Of a stretch of DNA of 35,443 bases, positions 26,426 to 32,200 are shown piece by piece. The position numbers and the translations under genes were made by a program. The stretch spans positions 10,801 to 46,243 of the forward strand of contig JAQVMU010000004.1 in assembly GCA_028703475.1 (NCBI GenBank), in the 5' to 3' direction. A model generated the notes under the pieces. That model searched no databases and had not been told where the DNA came from. It saw nothing but the letters and a program-made list of their open reading frames with translations. Origin of the DNA: Atribacterota bacterium. GTDB taxonomy: Bacteria > Atribacterota > Phoenicimicrobiia > Phoenicimicrobiales > Stramentimicrobiaceae. Position 1 is the stretch's first letter, and each line of letters opens with the position of its first letter.

Positions 26426-26899
26426 TTATTTAATATTTAATATTTTATAATTTAAGCTGCCCGCAGGTACTCTGATTTTAACTTTATCGCCCACTTTTCT
26501 TCCCAAAACTGCTTTACCAATAGGCGAAGCAATGGATATCTTGCCGGAAGATGGATCAGATTCAATATAATCAACTAATGTATACTCTATCTTTTCCTTT
26601 TTCTTAATATCTTCAACAACAATCTTTGAACCTGGAGAAACAACTGTTTGGTCATTTTTCGATGTGTCAATGAGCTCACAATTTTCAATAACCTTTTCCA
26701 ATGTCAATATTCTGCCTTCGATAAAAGCCTGTTCATTTTTGGCAGACCGATATTCAGCATTCTCCGCTATTTCACCGAATGCTACTGCATGGCTTATTTT
26801 TTCAGCAATTTCTTTTCTTTTTACAGTCTTTAATTCATGCAGTTCTGATTTAATTTTTTCCAGCCCTTCTTCAGTCAGCATAATCTTTCGGTCGTTCAT
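26426..26899 (-). CDS. greA: Transcription elongation factor GreA
   Basis: Binds the RNA polymerase secondary channel and rescues backtracked complexes by stimulating transcript cleavage. The 157-residue product has the N-terminal coiled coil (1-75) with the acidic tip in the FGEIAENAEYRSAKNEQAF stretch and a C-terminal FKBP-like domain (ISIASPIGKAVLGRKVGDKV). Length is standard. ATG with TAGGGTG about eight bases upstream. The leader carries a long hairpin beginning near the predicted start of transcription (26933-26980). Confidence 0.96.
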   Translation of the reverse strand: MNDRKIMLTEEGLEKIKSELHELKTVKRKEIAEKISHAVAFGEIAENAEYRSAKNEQAFIEGRILTLEKVIENCELIDTSKNDQTVVSPGSKIVVEDIKKKEKIEYTLVDYIESDPSSGKISIASPIGKAVLGRKVGDKVKIRVPAGSLNYKILNIK

Positions 26900-27269
26900 T
26901 TTTTATACACCCTAACCTTCTCATAAAATTAAAACTAAGACAAGTGGCATCTGGAAACAAGGGGAATACTTATCTTAGTTAACAAAATATTATATATTTT
27001 CTAAATTAGCGACTTTTGTAGTTTTAAATGAATTATAGGGTATTTATAATTTTATGTCAAATAAATATTGTTTTTATCAGTATTATAAAAATATAACATT
27101 TTTTAATTATATTTAATAATTCAAAAAGATAAAAATCATTACTTATAATAATATAAAAAAGTATCTTATTGATTTTATTCAGCTTTAAATAGAGCTGTAA
27201 TAGCTTCTCTCTTGCAAAAAATAAATAAGTTTAATATAATTTTATTTTATACAGGTTTATATTGCATTT
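26900..27269. other. Long AT-rich intergenic region upstream of greA
   Basis: About 370 bases between the oxoamine-synthase gene and greA. The greA-proximal 100 bases hold a TATAAT (26994-26989 on the minus strand, no good -35) and the leader hairpin. The remaining part, 27000-27269, is extremely AT-rich without an ORF, a clear terminator for the upstream gene, or an RNA gene that I can recognise. Confidence 0.5.
26933..26980 (-). promoter_or_regulatory. Hairpin in the greA leader
   Basis: AACTAAGATAAGT (minus strand, 26980-26968) pairs with ACTTGTCTTAGTT (26945-26933): 13 pairs, one of them G-T, with a 22-base loop containing CCCCTTG. A T-rich stretch follows the 3' arm. TATAAT at 26994-26989 would start transcription at about 26982, so the mRNA would begin with this hairpin. 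It could be an attenuator or a 5' stabiliser; GreA is known to control its own leader in E. coli, but homology of mechanism is not shown. Confidence 0.45.
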
Positions 27270-28460
27270 TTAGATTAATCCCAATGATTTTCCGGCTTTC
27301 TCAAATATTTGTAAAGCTTCTTCAATATCCCCCTGAGTATGGTGTGTAAGTATATGAGATCTAAGCCTGCTAGTTCCTTTTGGAACTGCTGGGAATACAA
27401 TAGGGCAAATAAATACACCCATCTCATTAACCATCTTACAAAGCTGTAATGTTTCTTCTTCTCCACCAATAATAATAGGAACTATTGCTGTAACGGTATC
27501 TCCAATATTGTAACCCATGGAATTTATGCCTTCTCTAAATTTTTCCATGTTTTTATGTAAATTCTCAACTCGTTCCGGCTCATCCTCAATCACTTCCAGA
27601 GCGGCAATGGCTACAGCAGCATTGACCGGGGGAATGGGTGCTGAAAAGATAAATGGCCTGGAATTATGTCTTAAATATTGAATCATTTCTTTTTCACCAG
27701 CAATATATCCGCCAACAGCAGGAATAGTTTTGCTAAGGGTTCCCATGTGTATATCTACGGCATCTTTTAATCCGAAATATTCTTCAATACCATGTCCTGT
27801 TTTTCCAAGTACTCCAATAGAATGAGCCTCATCTACCATTACCTTTGCTCCATATTTTTTTGCTAAACGGGATATTTCTGGTAAATTTGCAACATCACCA
27901 TCCATACTGTAAACACCATCAACTATGATTATTTTATTTACATAGTTATCAGAATTTTTTAAAATAGATTCCAGTCTGTCCATATCGTTATGTAAAAAAG
28001 ATTTATGTCTGGCGCCTGAAAGCATACACCCGTCAATAATGCTTGCATGATCAATTTTATCAATTATAATCAAATCACCATTCTGGTAAAGAGAAGTAAT
28101 AGCAGCTAAATTGGTTACATACCCGCTGGTATAAGTAATAGCATCTTCAGCTCCTTTGAATTGGGAGATTTTTTCTTCCAACTTTTTGTGCACCTCTGTA
28201 GTTCCCGATAAGAAACGAACACCTGAAGTGCCTGTACCATATTTTTCAATCGCTTTGATGGCTGCCTCCTTTAATTTAGGATGATCTATCAATCCCAAAT
28301 AATTATATGAAGCCAGCATTATTTTTTCTTCCCCTTCAACCATAACTCTCGATTGTGCAGAATTTTCAATGGTTTTCAGCCAAAAGAAGGTACCATTCTC
28401 TTTCAATCGATTTGCTCTCTCATTCACCTGATTAATTTTTTCCTTTAAAGTTGTTCCCAT
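27270..28460 (-). CDS. Alpha-oxoamine synthase (KBL/BioF/serine palmitoyltransferase family)
   Basis: PLP enzyme that condenses an amino acid with an acyl-CoA and releases CO2. The 396-residue product is complete: SYNYLGL (51-57), TGTSGVRFLSGTTEVHKKLE (76-95), D210-E-A-H213 holding the cofactor pyridine, and the PLP lysine K244 in TLSKTIPAVGGY. The substrate cannot be fixed from sequence: glycine C-acetyltransferase (2-amino-3-ketobutyrate CoA ligase), 8-amino-7-oxononanoate synthase and serine palmitoyltransferase share this fold. No tdh, bio or sphingolipid genes lie near. It is the third gene of an operon with an unknown protein and a regulator, 28 bases after the former; ATG with AGGAGA upstream. 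The best guess is a KBL-like acetyltransferase, but this is not certain. Confidence 0.85.
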   Translation of the reverse strand: MGTTLKEKINQVNERANRLKENGTFFWLKTIENSAQSRVMVEGEEKIMLASYNYLGLIDHPKLKEAAIKAIEKYGTGTSGVRFLSGTTEVHKKLEEKISQFKGAEDAITYTSGYVTNLAAITSLYQNGDLIIIDKIDHASIIDGCMLSGARHKSFLHNDMDRLESILKNSDNYVNKIIIVDGVYSMDGDVANLPEISRLAKKYGAKVMVDEAHSIGVLGKTGHGIEEYFGLKDAVDIHMGTLSKTIPAVGGYIAGEKEMIQYLRHNSRPFIFSAPIPPVNAAVAIAALEVIEDEPERVENLHKNMEKFREGINSMGYNIGDTVTAIVPIIIGGEEETLQLCKMVNEMGVFICPIVFPAVPKGTSRLRSHILTHHTQGDIEEALQIFEKAGKSLGLI

Positions 28461-28488
28461 ATTAATCTCCTGTTCTTTTAAACTGTTT

Positions 28489-29400
28489 CTAATTATTTAA
28501 TTTTTCAATCCTTGGTTTAAAATCTATTTTTTTTAATAATTCGAGGTAATCATTATCCTTTAATTCTTCGGGCTTCTTCCCTGAAACAGCAACCAATAGT
28601 CCCTGATAAACATTAGTTCCAAAGGACCTTCCCTGAAATTGTGGTGTTGTAGTGATCAGGTATTTTACTCCTCTATCTTTTAAATCCTGAACATTTTCTG
28701 AAGTCACTGTATTTGTAATAACAATTTTACCTTCCATTTTATTTGGCATATACTGGCTAATTGCTATATAATCCCCTGCTACTATATCAGTCTGATCAAA
28801 AAAATGAGTAAATTTACTGTTCGAAGTTTCTTGTTTTTTACCGGTAGGATATAGATACTTAATTGGAATATTAACTAAAACAGGTATTATTACCCGGGCT
28901 ATCTTATTTAGCGTGCTCAAGCTATATATAGGTATAGGTATATTTAAACATGAAATAAGATCACCAAAAGTCATTTTACATCCTGCCTCTATCAGTCCTT
29001 CTGCAAGTCCAAATCTATCAACTGTAATGAGTAATAAGGCTTTCTTGTCCTGCAGTACTATATCAGTATGTTTAGTAATATATCTTATAACATCTTTCTC
29101 TAATACATATTTTATTCCGGAACCGTCAACAATAGGAGTTTTTTTGATTACACTTACAATCCTGGCAGACTCTTTAATAGTATACCTTTTTCCTTTAGGG
29201 CCAGAATAAAGATATAAGTCGGTTCCTCCAAGAGTAAAAACATCAACCTTCCCGTCATATTCCTGATACAATTGCATCATTTTTTTTACATCACCGTCTG
29301 TTCCTCTTCTTTCAATTTCTACTTCCTGCCCTAATATATTTACTTTTGCAATATGGTTTCTAGATGAGGAACCTAAGCTAACACCAAGAACTTTTTTCAC
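28489..29400 (-). CDS. Conserved protein of unknown function
   Basis: I recognise this family only from automatic labels such as quinate 5-dehydrogenase, which the sequence does not support: there is no GxGxxG dinucleotide-binding turn. The 303-residue product starts KKVLGVSLGSSSRNH (2-16), then has a RRGTDGD stretch (31-37), VDVFTLGGTDLYLY (52-65), VDRFGLAEGL (127-136), a hydrophobic part (about 165-185), VAGDYIAISQYMP (207-219) and VTSENVQDLKDRGVKYLITTTP (232-253). No signal peptide is seen; it is probably cytoplasmic. The start is GTG with CAGGAGATA upstream, five bases after the regulator gene, so the two are translated together. A link to the oxoamine synthase behind it is likely from the operon alone. 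Confidence 0.8.
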   Translation of the reverse strand: MKKVLGVSLGSSSRNHIAKVNILGQEVEIERRGTDGDVKKMMQLYQEYDGKVDVFTLGGTDLYLYSGPKGKRYTIKESARIVSVIKKTPIVDGSGIKYVLEKDVIRYITKHTDIVLQDKKALLLITVDRFGLAEGLIEAGCKMTFGDLISCLNIPIPIYSLSTLNKIARVIIPVLVNIPIKYLYPTGKKQETSNSKFTHFFDQTDIVAGDYIAISQYMPNKMEGKIVITNTVTSENVQDLKDRGVKYLITTTPQFQGRSFGTNVYQGLLVAVSGKKPEELKDNDYLELLKKIDFKPRIEKLNN

Positions 29401-29404
29401 TTTT

Positions 29405-29947
29405 TTATCTCCTGTTTATTGAAATTGCTTTAACTTTGTTTAATATTTCCATGATTGTCTCTGGGTCAACATATTTATCTTCAGTTATTGGTGATTTTCC
29501 AATTTCTACCCCAACGACTTGTATGCTGAATAATTTTTCCACAACTTCTACTCTTTTATCAGAGCCTAAAAAGACAATCAAATCATAATCTATCAAATTA
29601 CTGATAATAGAAATGATTTCATTAAATAGGTTTGTTTTTGTCCTGTCCTTAATAAAATTAATGCGTTCTTGTTGTGTCAATATTAGAGTGAAATCAATAC
29701 CTACTTCCTGGGCTTTTTTTAAAATTTCCATTTTGTTTTTTATCGGAAAACCAACCAGGGCAATTTTTTTTCCTTTCCTGATTTCTCCCAGGCTTTCGAG
29801 CCTGGAAACAAAAGTTCTTTCAATCCCCAGCTTTCTGGCAACCTCTCCCTGTGTTAGTCCTTCTGTTCTGAGTTTTAATATTTTACTGATTTCCCGCTCC
29901 AACTTTTCCCGGTAGAGAACTTTTTCACCAATTCTAATAATATTCAT
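29405..29947 (-). CDS. Helix-turn-helix transcriptional regulator
   Basis: Likely local regulator of the three-gene operon. From ATG at 29947 the product has 180 residues: an N-terminal Xre-like helix-turn-helix (about 31-52, LTQGEVARKLGIERTFVSRLESLG) and a C-terminal alpha/beta domain (about 58-178) with KKIALVGFPIK and YDLIVFLGSDK strands that may bind a small ligand or partner. An in-frame GTG ten codons upstream falls inside the repeated TGTGTACA sequence and is rejected; AGGAAA precedes the chosen ATG. The strong promoter and repeat elements just upstream suggest autoregulation. I know no characterised member. Confidence 0.82.
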   Translation of the reverse strand: MNIIRIGEKVLYREKLEREISKILKLRTEGLTQGEVARKLGIERTFVSRLESLGEIRKGKKIALVGFPIKNKMEILKKAQEVGIDFTLILTQQERINFIKDRTKTNLFNEIISIISNLIDYDLIVFLGSDKRVEVVEKLFSIQVVGVEIGKSPITEDKYVDPETIMEILNKVKAISINRR

Positions 29948-29958
29948 AAATATTTTCC

Positions 29959-29978
29959 TGTACACATTTTTGTACACA
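29959..29978 (-). promoter_or_regulatory. Putative operator: two TGTGTACA repeats
   Basis: On the minus strand TGTGTACA occurs at 29978-29971 and again at 29966-29959, spaced 12 bases start to start and separated by AAAA. Each contains the palindrome TGTACA. The pair lies between the -10 box and the ribosome-binding site of the regulator gene, covering the expected transcription start. A bound repressor would block the promoter; the regulator encoded just downstream is the obvious candidate. The repeat is direct observation and the regulator assignment is inference. Confidence 0.6.
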
Positions 29979-30006
29979 TTATATATTAATGGAATTTTAG
30001 TGTCAA
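29978..30006 (-). promoter_or_regulatory. Consensus sigma-A promoter of the regulator operon
   Basis: Minus strand: TTGACA (30006-30001), exactly 17 bases, then TATAAT (29983-29978). Both hexamers are perfect. It would start transcription near 29971, inside the repeated TGTGTACA element, and drive the regulator, the unknown protein and the oxoamine synthase. Confidence 0.85.
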
Positions 30007-31189: not shown

Positions 31190-32200
31190 TTATATCAGGT
31201 ATTTAGCTATTTCCTGTTCTGCCAATGATTGCACAAACCTTCTGTCATTCATTTTACTGTCAGGATTCCAGATATTAATATCAACAATATCATCAGGAGA
31301 ATTCTTATCACAATATCTTGCTGTAATCTTGCTTGCCAGCTCCAATAATATGTCCATATCTGAAAATTCACTATTAGTATCGAAGTAAAAACGCAATAAG
31401 GAAACAGGTCCTTTAAATTCTTTTGAACTTATGAGAAAATCTGCAGGTTTAACCAGGGAAAATATCTTTTTATTTTCTATCTCATTTCTACCAACTACCA
31501 GCCTAAAATTATTTCTGAGATTAAAGTGACGACCAACTTTTAATAACTCAATGTCATTATCATTAAAATTATTTTTTAGTAAACCTCTTATTCTTTTGGA
31601 AAAACCCGGCTCAGTTAATTTGCATCCTCCCGCGGGAGCAGGATATTTATTAATTCCAAACTTTCTTGCAAGTGCTATTTGTCTTTTTCTTGACCTGCCT
31701 TGCAGGTCAAGTAATCTGAATCGGTTAACAATATTAAGCTTCTCCGGTTTAGTCTCTGGCAACAGTAATGCAGAAAGTGGCCTAAGAATCCATGAACTAT
31801 AACCGGATTCTTTGCTGATTGTTAATAAACTTCTTTTATTCTGCGTCATCGGCCTTTGTCCAAGCACCTCACCACTAATGATAAATGATGCCCCTTCTCT
31901 TTCCATCAACTCACCTGCCTTACGAAACATCAGAATACGACAATCAATGCAGGGGTTAACATTCTTTCCATAACCATATTTTGGATTTAAAGCAACCTCT
32001 TTAAATTCTTCGCTTATGTCTTCTCTTATAAATCTAATATTCAAGTATTTTTCTGCATATGAACTAATTTTGTTTTCTATAAATGGTGTTTTAAGTTGCA
32101 GCCCTATTACATTAATATTCTGCTTTAGTATTATTTTTATTGCCAGTATGCTATCTAAACCGCCAGAATAAAGGGCTACTGCTTTTATTTTATCAGTCAC
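31190..32200 (-). CDS. ThiI/MnmA-like PP-loop sulfurtransferase with extra C-terminal domain
   Basis: Probably a tRNA-thiolating enzyme. The 336-residue product has a PP-loop YSGGLDS (11-17), VNPCIDC with C84 and C87, GEVLGQRPMTQ (110-120), which resembles ThiI's GESLGQ stretch, and a third cysteine C193 in PAPAGGCKLTEPGF. It lacks the THUMP RNA-binding domain of classical ThiI. The C-terminal third (about 230-336, VVGRNEIENKKIF and PADFLISSKEFKGPVSLLRF) looks like the NFACT-R RNA-binding domain, which I recall being fused to such thiouridine synthase-like proteins in some bacteria. Start is GTG with AAAGG upstream. It precedes mnmA in one operon. Exact tRNA target is unknown; s4U8 is one possibility. 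Confidence 0.8.
   Translation of the reverse strand: MTDKIKAVALYSGGLDSILAIKIILKQNINVIGLQLKTPFIENKISSYAEKYLNIRFIREDISEEFKEVALNPKYGYGKNVNPCIDCRILMFRKAGELMEREGASFIISGEVLGQRPMTQNKRSLLTISKESGYSSWILRPLSALLLPETKPEKLNIVNRFRLLDLQGRSRKRQIALARKFGINKYPAPAGGCKLTEPGFSKRIRGLLKNNFNDNDIELLKVGRHFNLRNNFRLVVGRNEIENKKIFSLVKPADFLISSKEFKGPVSLLRFYFDTNSEFSDMDILLELASKITARYCDKNSPDDIVDINIWNPDSKMNDRRFVQSLAEQEIAKYLI

Follow-up and report, generated by a model that had tools for sequence, protein, structure and literature searches.

Parts of the locus analysed here, a three-gene operon on the minus strand of a 35 443-nucleotide stretch of DNA from an uncultured Atribacterota bacterium of the deep subsurface (the window), resemble bacterial systems that have already been described. 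In tambjamine, prodigiosin and koreenceine synthesis, TamH, PigE and KecF are enzymes that join a transaminase to an acyl-thioester reductase resembling the cyanobacterial acyl-ACP (acyl carrier protein) reductase AAR (PMC9594044, PMC8341465, PMC6498172), and TamH, by this architecture, turns a fatty acyl group into a fatty amine (PMC9594044). Serine palmitoyltransferase (SPT) is known structurally from Sphingobacterium (PDB 3a2b/8guh) and AAR itself from cyanobacteria (PDB 6jzq/6jzy), while the regulator EnfR, of the archaeal Tfx group (PDB 8hno/8hnp), was found in reporter tests to act by road-block or by overlap with the -10 element (PMC10570040). The phylum Atribacterota comprises two groups, OP9 (Atribacteria) and JS1 (Phoenicimicrobiia) (PMC11227167). 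Its members occur widely in the deep subsurface, and their envelope is unusual in being multilayered (PMC7736352).

The operon encodes a helix-turn-helix (HTH) regulator (gene 1), a protein of unknown function (gene 2) and an alpha-oxoamine synthase (AONS, gene 3). Comparison of gene sets indicates that the regulator and gene 2 are an old pair and that the AONS is a lineage-specific third gene, outside the ancient core. Autoregulated operons, AONS enzymes and transaminase–AAR enzymes are kinds already known; the open-access literature searched contained neither the combination nor the operator, the regulator family or gene 2. Nor did it yield a described gene cluster for quinate 5-dehydrogenase, COG5322 or Atribacterota with SPT. 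The earlier note on this DNA had called the gene set uncharacterized, and in this it was right. The features of the locus are as follows.

29978..30006, minus strand: sigma-70-type promoter, -35 TTGACA at 30006-30001, 17-bp spacer, -10 TATAAT at 29983-29978; exact match
29959..29978, minus strand: putative operator, TGTGTACA-AAAA-TGTGTACA, a pair of near-palindromic 8-mers repeated at a 12-bp interval across the expected start of transcription
29405..29947, minus strand: gene 1, regulator, 180 amino acids from the ATG at 29947, with an N-terminal HTH (about residues 13-54) and a C-terminal alpha/beta domain (about residues 60-175)
28489..29400, minus strand: gene 2, 303 amino acids, GTG start, with an invariant YPTGKKQE motif and a predicted Rossmann-like fold
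27270..28460, minus strand: gene 3, AONS, 396 amino acids, assigned to the SPT side by PDB match and tree

Promoter and operator

The earlier note had described three minus-strand genes behind an exact TTGACA-N17-TATAAT promoter, the expected start point being covered by two TGTGTACA boxes. We found all of these: the genes at 29405-29947, 28489-29400 and 27270-28460, the promoter at 30006..29978, one box at 29978-29971 and the other at 29966-29959. On the minus strand the window reads TTGACA-17-TATAATGTGTACAAAAATGTGTACAGGAAAATATTTATG at this point; the first TGTGTACA box shares the last base of the -10 element, and the pair of boxes therefore covers the expected start point. TTGACA- and TATAAT-like elements are retained in relatives of the same family, and in relatives too the operator lies directly 3' of the -10 element.

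A pair of bare TGTGTACA 8-mers would be unremarkable, as 0.64 are expected and at least two copies occurred in 13 of 100 shuffles. The 20-bp element, by contrast, has no second match at up to two mismatches in the 1.79-Mb genome to which the window belongs, and in 20 Atribacterota genomes exactly one operator site was found per genome, at this locus, with zero matches for reversed control patterns. The apparent exception, G006, has its operator site approximately 270 bp upstream of the regulator, and a second site in G063 (L147) was set aside as unsupported, lying at a locus without any of the genes. When the consensus TGTRYACA-N4-TGTRYACA was scored in 60 distinct 120-bp regions 5' of regulator genes from Atribacterota and Bacillota, it was exact in 33 and present with up to two mismatches in 52, compared with approximately 0.13% of shuffled sequences. 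The boxes are spelled TGTATACA or TGTGTACA in Atribacterota and TGTACACA...TGTGCACA in Bacillota, and the expectation that the repeats would be kept upstream of orthologues holds far outside Atribacterota too. What goes beyond chance, as judged from these sequences, is the 20-bp arrangement, its single occurrence per genome and its conservation across phyla, not the bare 8-mers; on the same grounds the double box is taken to be the regulator's own operator, conserved in two phyla.

The locus thus has a dedicated operator at the regulator's own promoter, conserved alongside the regulator, and autoregulation of the operon appears very probable. The strong promoter, built-in operator and own regulator that the earlier note had seen all stand; its word 'inducible' is less secure, and the geometry fits autorepression.

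A constant gene pair with a changing third gene

The genome of the window is one of 24 (G000-G023) that make up a two-family group of Atribacterota, and we regard the window as probably JS1-like. A homologue of the regulator is found immediately 5' of gene 2 in about half of 80 gene 2 loci (42 by clustering of open reading frames). Only in the window's order does the AONS adjoin this pair. In the 19 loci examined there, that of the genome itself included, the three genes stand together, as the earlier note required, two of these loci having a truncated or partial AONS. In Bacillota a protein of approximately 363 amino acids that matches acyl-ACP reductase and the reductase part of PigE (AAR-like) usually occupies the third slot; greA and lysS come after it, and coaX and dus often lie ahead. 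In Atribacterota outside the window's order, two loci (L162 and L163) read gene 2, class III transaminase, SRPBCC lipid-binding protein, AAR, and a third (L161) encodes an 879-amino acid transaminase–AAR fusion. In Pelotomaculum-type genomes the partners of gene 2 are an SCP2 lipid-transfer protein and an amino-acid permease.

The sister Atribacterota and several Bacillota loci therefore resemble TamH, PigE and KecF in having both activities, split or fused in the TamH order. TamH-like fusions occur in both phyla (L161:1345-3984, L175:1080-3815, L177:3169-5922, L179:984-3638 and L217:663-3284) under or beside the same regulator system, and no tambjamine or prodigiosin genes were noted near them. 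The window differs in that an AONS stands in place of both activities, no natural-product genes lie around it, and the system, which belongs to strict anaerobes, comes with gene 2 and a dedicated regulator.

Within Atribacterota the two kinds of third gene exclude each other. Among 50 Atribacterota genomes an AONS orthologue was present in 21, AAR in 23 and both in none (Fisher p 5e-9, kinship ignored). Gene 2 was found in 187 of 250 sampled genomes of the phylum of a Dethiobacter genome (Bacillota-type), and in a subset of this phylum, 40 genomes with gene 2 and 20 without, AAR was present in 37/40 against 2/20 and the regulator in 31/40 against 0/20. This contrast remains large despite the kinship of the genomes.

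The target of the regulator

Unlinked copies of these genes indicate what the operator follows. In Desulfofundulus and Desulfovirgula, operator and regulator precede AAR and gene 2 is located elsewhere; in two Bacillota genomes (G093 and G096) a transaminase–AAR fusion is unlinked from regulator and gene 2, yet the operator precedes the fusion; and in a third, G115, an operator of three half-sites (L177:5935-5964) lies before a transaminase–AAR fusion, with neither regulator nor gene 2 detected in the genome. No operator was found before the unlinked gene 2 copies of G127, G092 and G134. Because the operator stands before unlinked transaminase–AAR fusions and before AAR, and not before unlinked gene 2, the target of the regulator would be the acyl-thioester-consuming enzyme, and we conclude from the comparison of loci that in the window's order the AONS appears to have taken over that enzyme's position.

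The alpha-oxoamine synthase

The third gene, which the earlier note had called a PLP (pyridoxal phosphate) acyl-CoA condensing enzyme, is indeed an alpha-oxoamine synthase (Pfam Aminotran_1_2, E 1e-56). Its best PDB match is the Sphingobacterium SPT (325 bits), with which it shares the fold, and H138, D210, H213 and K244 align with the catalytic residues of that enzyme, those for PLP included. In a tree of 28 rows it falls in a clade of 15 (support 100/98) that also contains SPTs from bCerS/CerR clusters and one further AONS from Atribacterota, with 2-amino-3-ketobutyrate ligase (KBL), BioF and ALAS outside; the bCerS and CerR labels of these clusters are our reading of neighbouring GNAT-like and NAD-epimerase-like proteins. 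In contrast to the SPTs, window-type AONS form a separate long-branched clade of one order, without adjoining bCerS or CerR.

Family models gave scores short of their cut-offs throughout. The best was the BioF/Kbl-related subfamily TIGR01825 (438 bits, cut-off 535), followed by the SPT equivalog NF047600 (429.4 bits, cut-off 640), the KBL/glycine C-acetyltransferase models NF005394 (427.9/460) and TIGR01822 (349/493), with no threonine dehydrogenase adjoining, and BioF TIGR00858 (401 bits, cut-off 426), with no biotin gene among the flanking genes. The earlier note had seen no threonine, biotin or sphingolipid genes nearby, which is correct locally but incomplete, since the genome has a separate, KBL-type AONS beside a dehydrogenase of the SDR (short-chain dehydrogenase/reductase) family (L186:4086-6316, G000:C17), probably of the threonine-dehydrogenase type, and since the AONS of the locus itself clusters with SPTs.

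No bCerS or CerR lies beside the locus (CerR was not searched genome-wide). Proteins resembling bCerS (approximately 33% identity) do occur in Atribacterota that have AAR and lack any AONS (G025:C1:660618-661724 and others), so that within Atribacterota this GNAT-like family occurs independently of SPT.

Gene 2

The second gene remains, as the earlier note had it, a protein of unknown function, with no match in Pfam, NCBIfam or the PDB sequences. Its YPTGKKQE motif is invariant across a 53-sequence alignment, and its closest relatives come from Candidatus Atribacteria assemblies (85-68% identity); a search on plasmids gave no match. The AlphaFold model (pLDDT 92.5) matches Rossmann dehydrogenases and periplasmic binding proteins, the top TM-score among the matches listed being that of AAR (0.48, rmsd 8.4), and AAR-like enzymes are also its customary neighbours. 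Gene 2 as a paralogue or remote member of the AAR family, at which the fold search hinted, was nevertheless rejected: profile comparison (hhalign) gave a probability of 0.2%, and there is no GxGxxG motif and no invariant cysteine in the alignment that could correspond to the catalytic cysteine of AAR. Kinship is therefore not claimed. Gene 2 is probably a Rossmann-fold enzyme acting before or after the acyl-consuming step, and any particular role that might be assigned to it is doubtful.

In two long frames (L166 and L167) gene 2 seemed to be fused to a second domain, but the additional stretch results from reading through GC-rich DNA upstream and matches no family. In G022 (L174:2984-3978, identical DNA to L008) a frameshift or stop interrupts gene 2 while regulator, operator and AONS are intact, reflecting a sequencing error or decay.

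The regulator

A longer frame for the regulator begins at the GTG at 29977. The ATG at 29947 is the most likely start on sequence grounds, because the longer frame begins inside the operator and homologues start MxxxRIGEK, matching that ATG. The earlier note had called the product Xre-like with an additional alpha/beta domain; the HTH and the C-terminal alpha/beta domain are both there, whereas 'Xre-like' is a loose term, as no Pfam HTH model was reached (no Pfam family for the window's regulator; relatives score 16.5-19.1 bits against the Xre/HTH_3 gathering score of 23).

The HTH resembles that of Tfx, and a weak profile match to the archaeal Tfx/EnfR regulators (E 1.5e-4) covers the HTH and part of the C-terminal domain. 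The operator position is also comparable to those from which EnfR acts. Membership of the Tfx group was ruled out, however, by the NCBIfam cut-offs, which the scores miss by far (TIGR00721 23.4/60, PRK03975 27.2/115 and EnfR 25.9/260 bits), and by the predicted fold, the order of strands and helices in the C-terminal domain being Rossmann-like, unlike the note-head alpha+beta domain of EnfR. In the fold search EnfR was absent among the 50 matches listed, none of which reached E<=0.001. The EnfR operator, moreover, is a 36-bp inverted repeat, compared with two 8-mers at 12 bp here, and the target genes are different.

Proposed function and alternatives

We propose that gene 1, bound to the double box over the transcription start, represses the promoter from which it is itself transcribed, repression rather than activation being suggested by the position of the boxes, and that it would let go in response to a signal, which is probably a lipid or an acyl intermediate recognized by the C-terminal domain. 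The operon would control an enzyme that diverts fatty-acyl thioesters from normal lipid synthesis. In most Bacillota this would be an AAR-like reductase, giving an aldehyde from the acyl group; other Atribacterota and some Bacillota combine AAR with a class III transaminase, either as a separate protein or as a fusion, and would go on from the aldehyde to the amine, as TamH does; and in the window's order an SPT-like AONS would condense acyl-CoA and an amino acid to a long-chain 2-amino-3-ketone. The AONS could replace AAR and transaminase beside the same regulator and gene 2 because both would yield an acyl-derived chain bearing an amine. Gene 2 would be the constant partner, an enzyme or carrier of the same step, and the product here would most likely be a long-chain amino-ketone or a sphingoid-base-like aminolipid. 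A long-chain acyl substrate for the AONS is likely, while an amino-lipid as the product is about evenly balanced. For the proposal as a whole, an autorepressed module that turns acyl thioesters into amino-lipids, here by way of an SPT-like AONS, the chances seem to us equal either way.

Several results weigh against this proposal. The association p-values overstate independence because related genomes were counted separately, and the chemistry of the product is deduced from sequence. Gene 3 is below every NCBIfam equivalog cut-off, and its own genome has no bCerS-like match; the fold matches of gene 2 are loose (TM at most 0.48), and it has none of the motifs or profile similarity of AAR described above. 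No operator precedes the unlinked AAR or fusion in G099, G095, G136 and G123, and most Bacillota loci have AAR without an adjoining transaminase, so that 'amine' is not universal.

If gene 3 were a true SPT, the operon would open the usual bacterial route to sphingolipids (ceramide), and the enzymes of the later steps would be encoded elsewhere or have been replaced. The closest solved relative and the position in the tree, among SPTs that adjoin bCerS and CerR, agree with this, and SPT-like genes without nearby bCerS/CerR have been reported in many anaerobes (PMC11334938). We nevertheless consider it unlikely, as the SPT equivalog cut-off is missed by >200 bits, a bCerS-like gene is lacking in the genome itself and present in only one of 14 genomes of the sister family, and the AAR/transaminase loci to which gene 2 and the regulator belong are unrelated to ceramide. 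A short-chain enzyme of the KBL or BioF type, which would place the operon in amino-acid or biotin metabolism, is the least probable of the alternatives: the tree sets gene 3 apart from both, even though their models score near that for SPT, the slot is otherwise occupied by fatty-acyl enzymes, and threonine breakdown does not need gene 3, since the genome holds the KBL-type AONS beside the SDR dehydrogenase.

The regulator and gene 2 might instead have an unrelated function, such as acyl or redox sensing, with the AONS, like AAR elsewhere, a passenger in a repressed locus. This we think rather improbable, because the operator tracks AAR or transaminase–AAR even when these are unlinked and is absent from unlinked gene 2, and because gene 2 and AAR co-occur very strongly and AONS and AAR strictly exclude each other; what speaks for it is the pairing of gene 2 with SCP2 and a permease in Pelotomaculum-type genomes and its occurrence without AAR in 3/40 genomes.

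Beyond this locus we suggest, tentatively, that a widespread undescribed module of HTH regulator, TGTRYACA-N4-TGTRYACA operator and Rossmann-like protein governs, in anaerobes of the Bacillota and Atribacterota, the diversion of acyl thioesters to lipids of the aldehyde, amine or amino-ketone type, AAR/transaminase having been replaced non-homologously by an SPT-like enzyme in one Atribacterota order. Such a module would supply an operator and a defined target for a regulator family found in two phyla and would link gene 2, for all its conservation a protein of unknown function, to fatty-acyl chemistry. It also predicts that many anaerobes, Atribacterota included, make aldehyde-, amine- or sphingoid-type lipids so far not looked for, and the replacement by an SPT-like enzyme, if true, implies a new class of aminolipid in one Atribacterota order.

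Neighbouring genes

Two further features lie downstream of the operon.

27032-27060, minus strand: second exact TTGACA-17-TATAAT promoter, immediately 5' of greA
26426..26899, minus strand: greA, the next gene downstream

The operon promoter had been described as the only one in the window with both hexamers exact; this is wrong, given the second exact one at 27060-27032 (the chance expectation is 0.10 for both exact promoters). greA, although a conserved neighbour, has this promoter of its own and is probably outside the pathway. On the other side of the operon, at 31190-32200 on the minus strand, a ThiI-like PP-loop protein with a C-terminal NFACT-R_2 RNA-binding domain adjoins mnmA, and members of the PP-loop/MnmA family are recurrent neighbours in the window's order.

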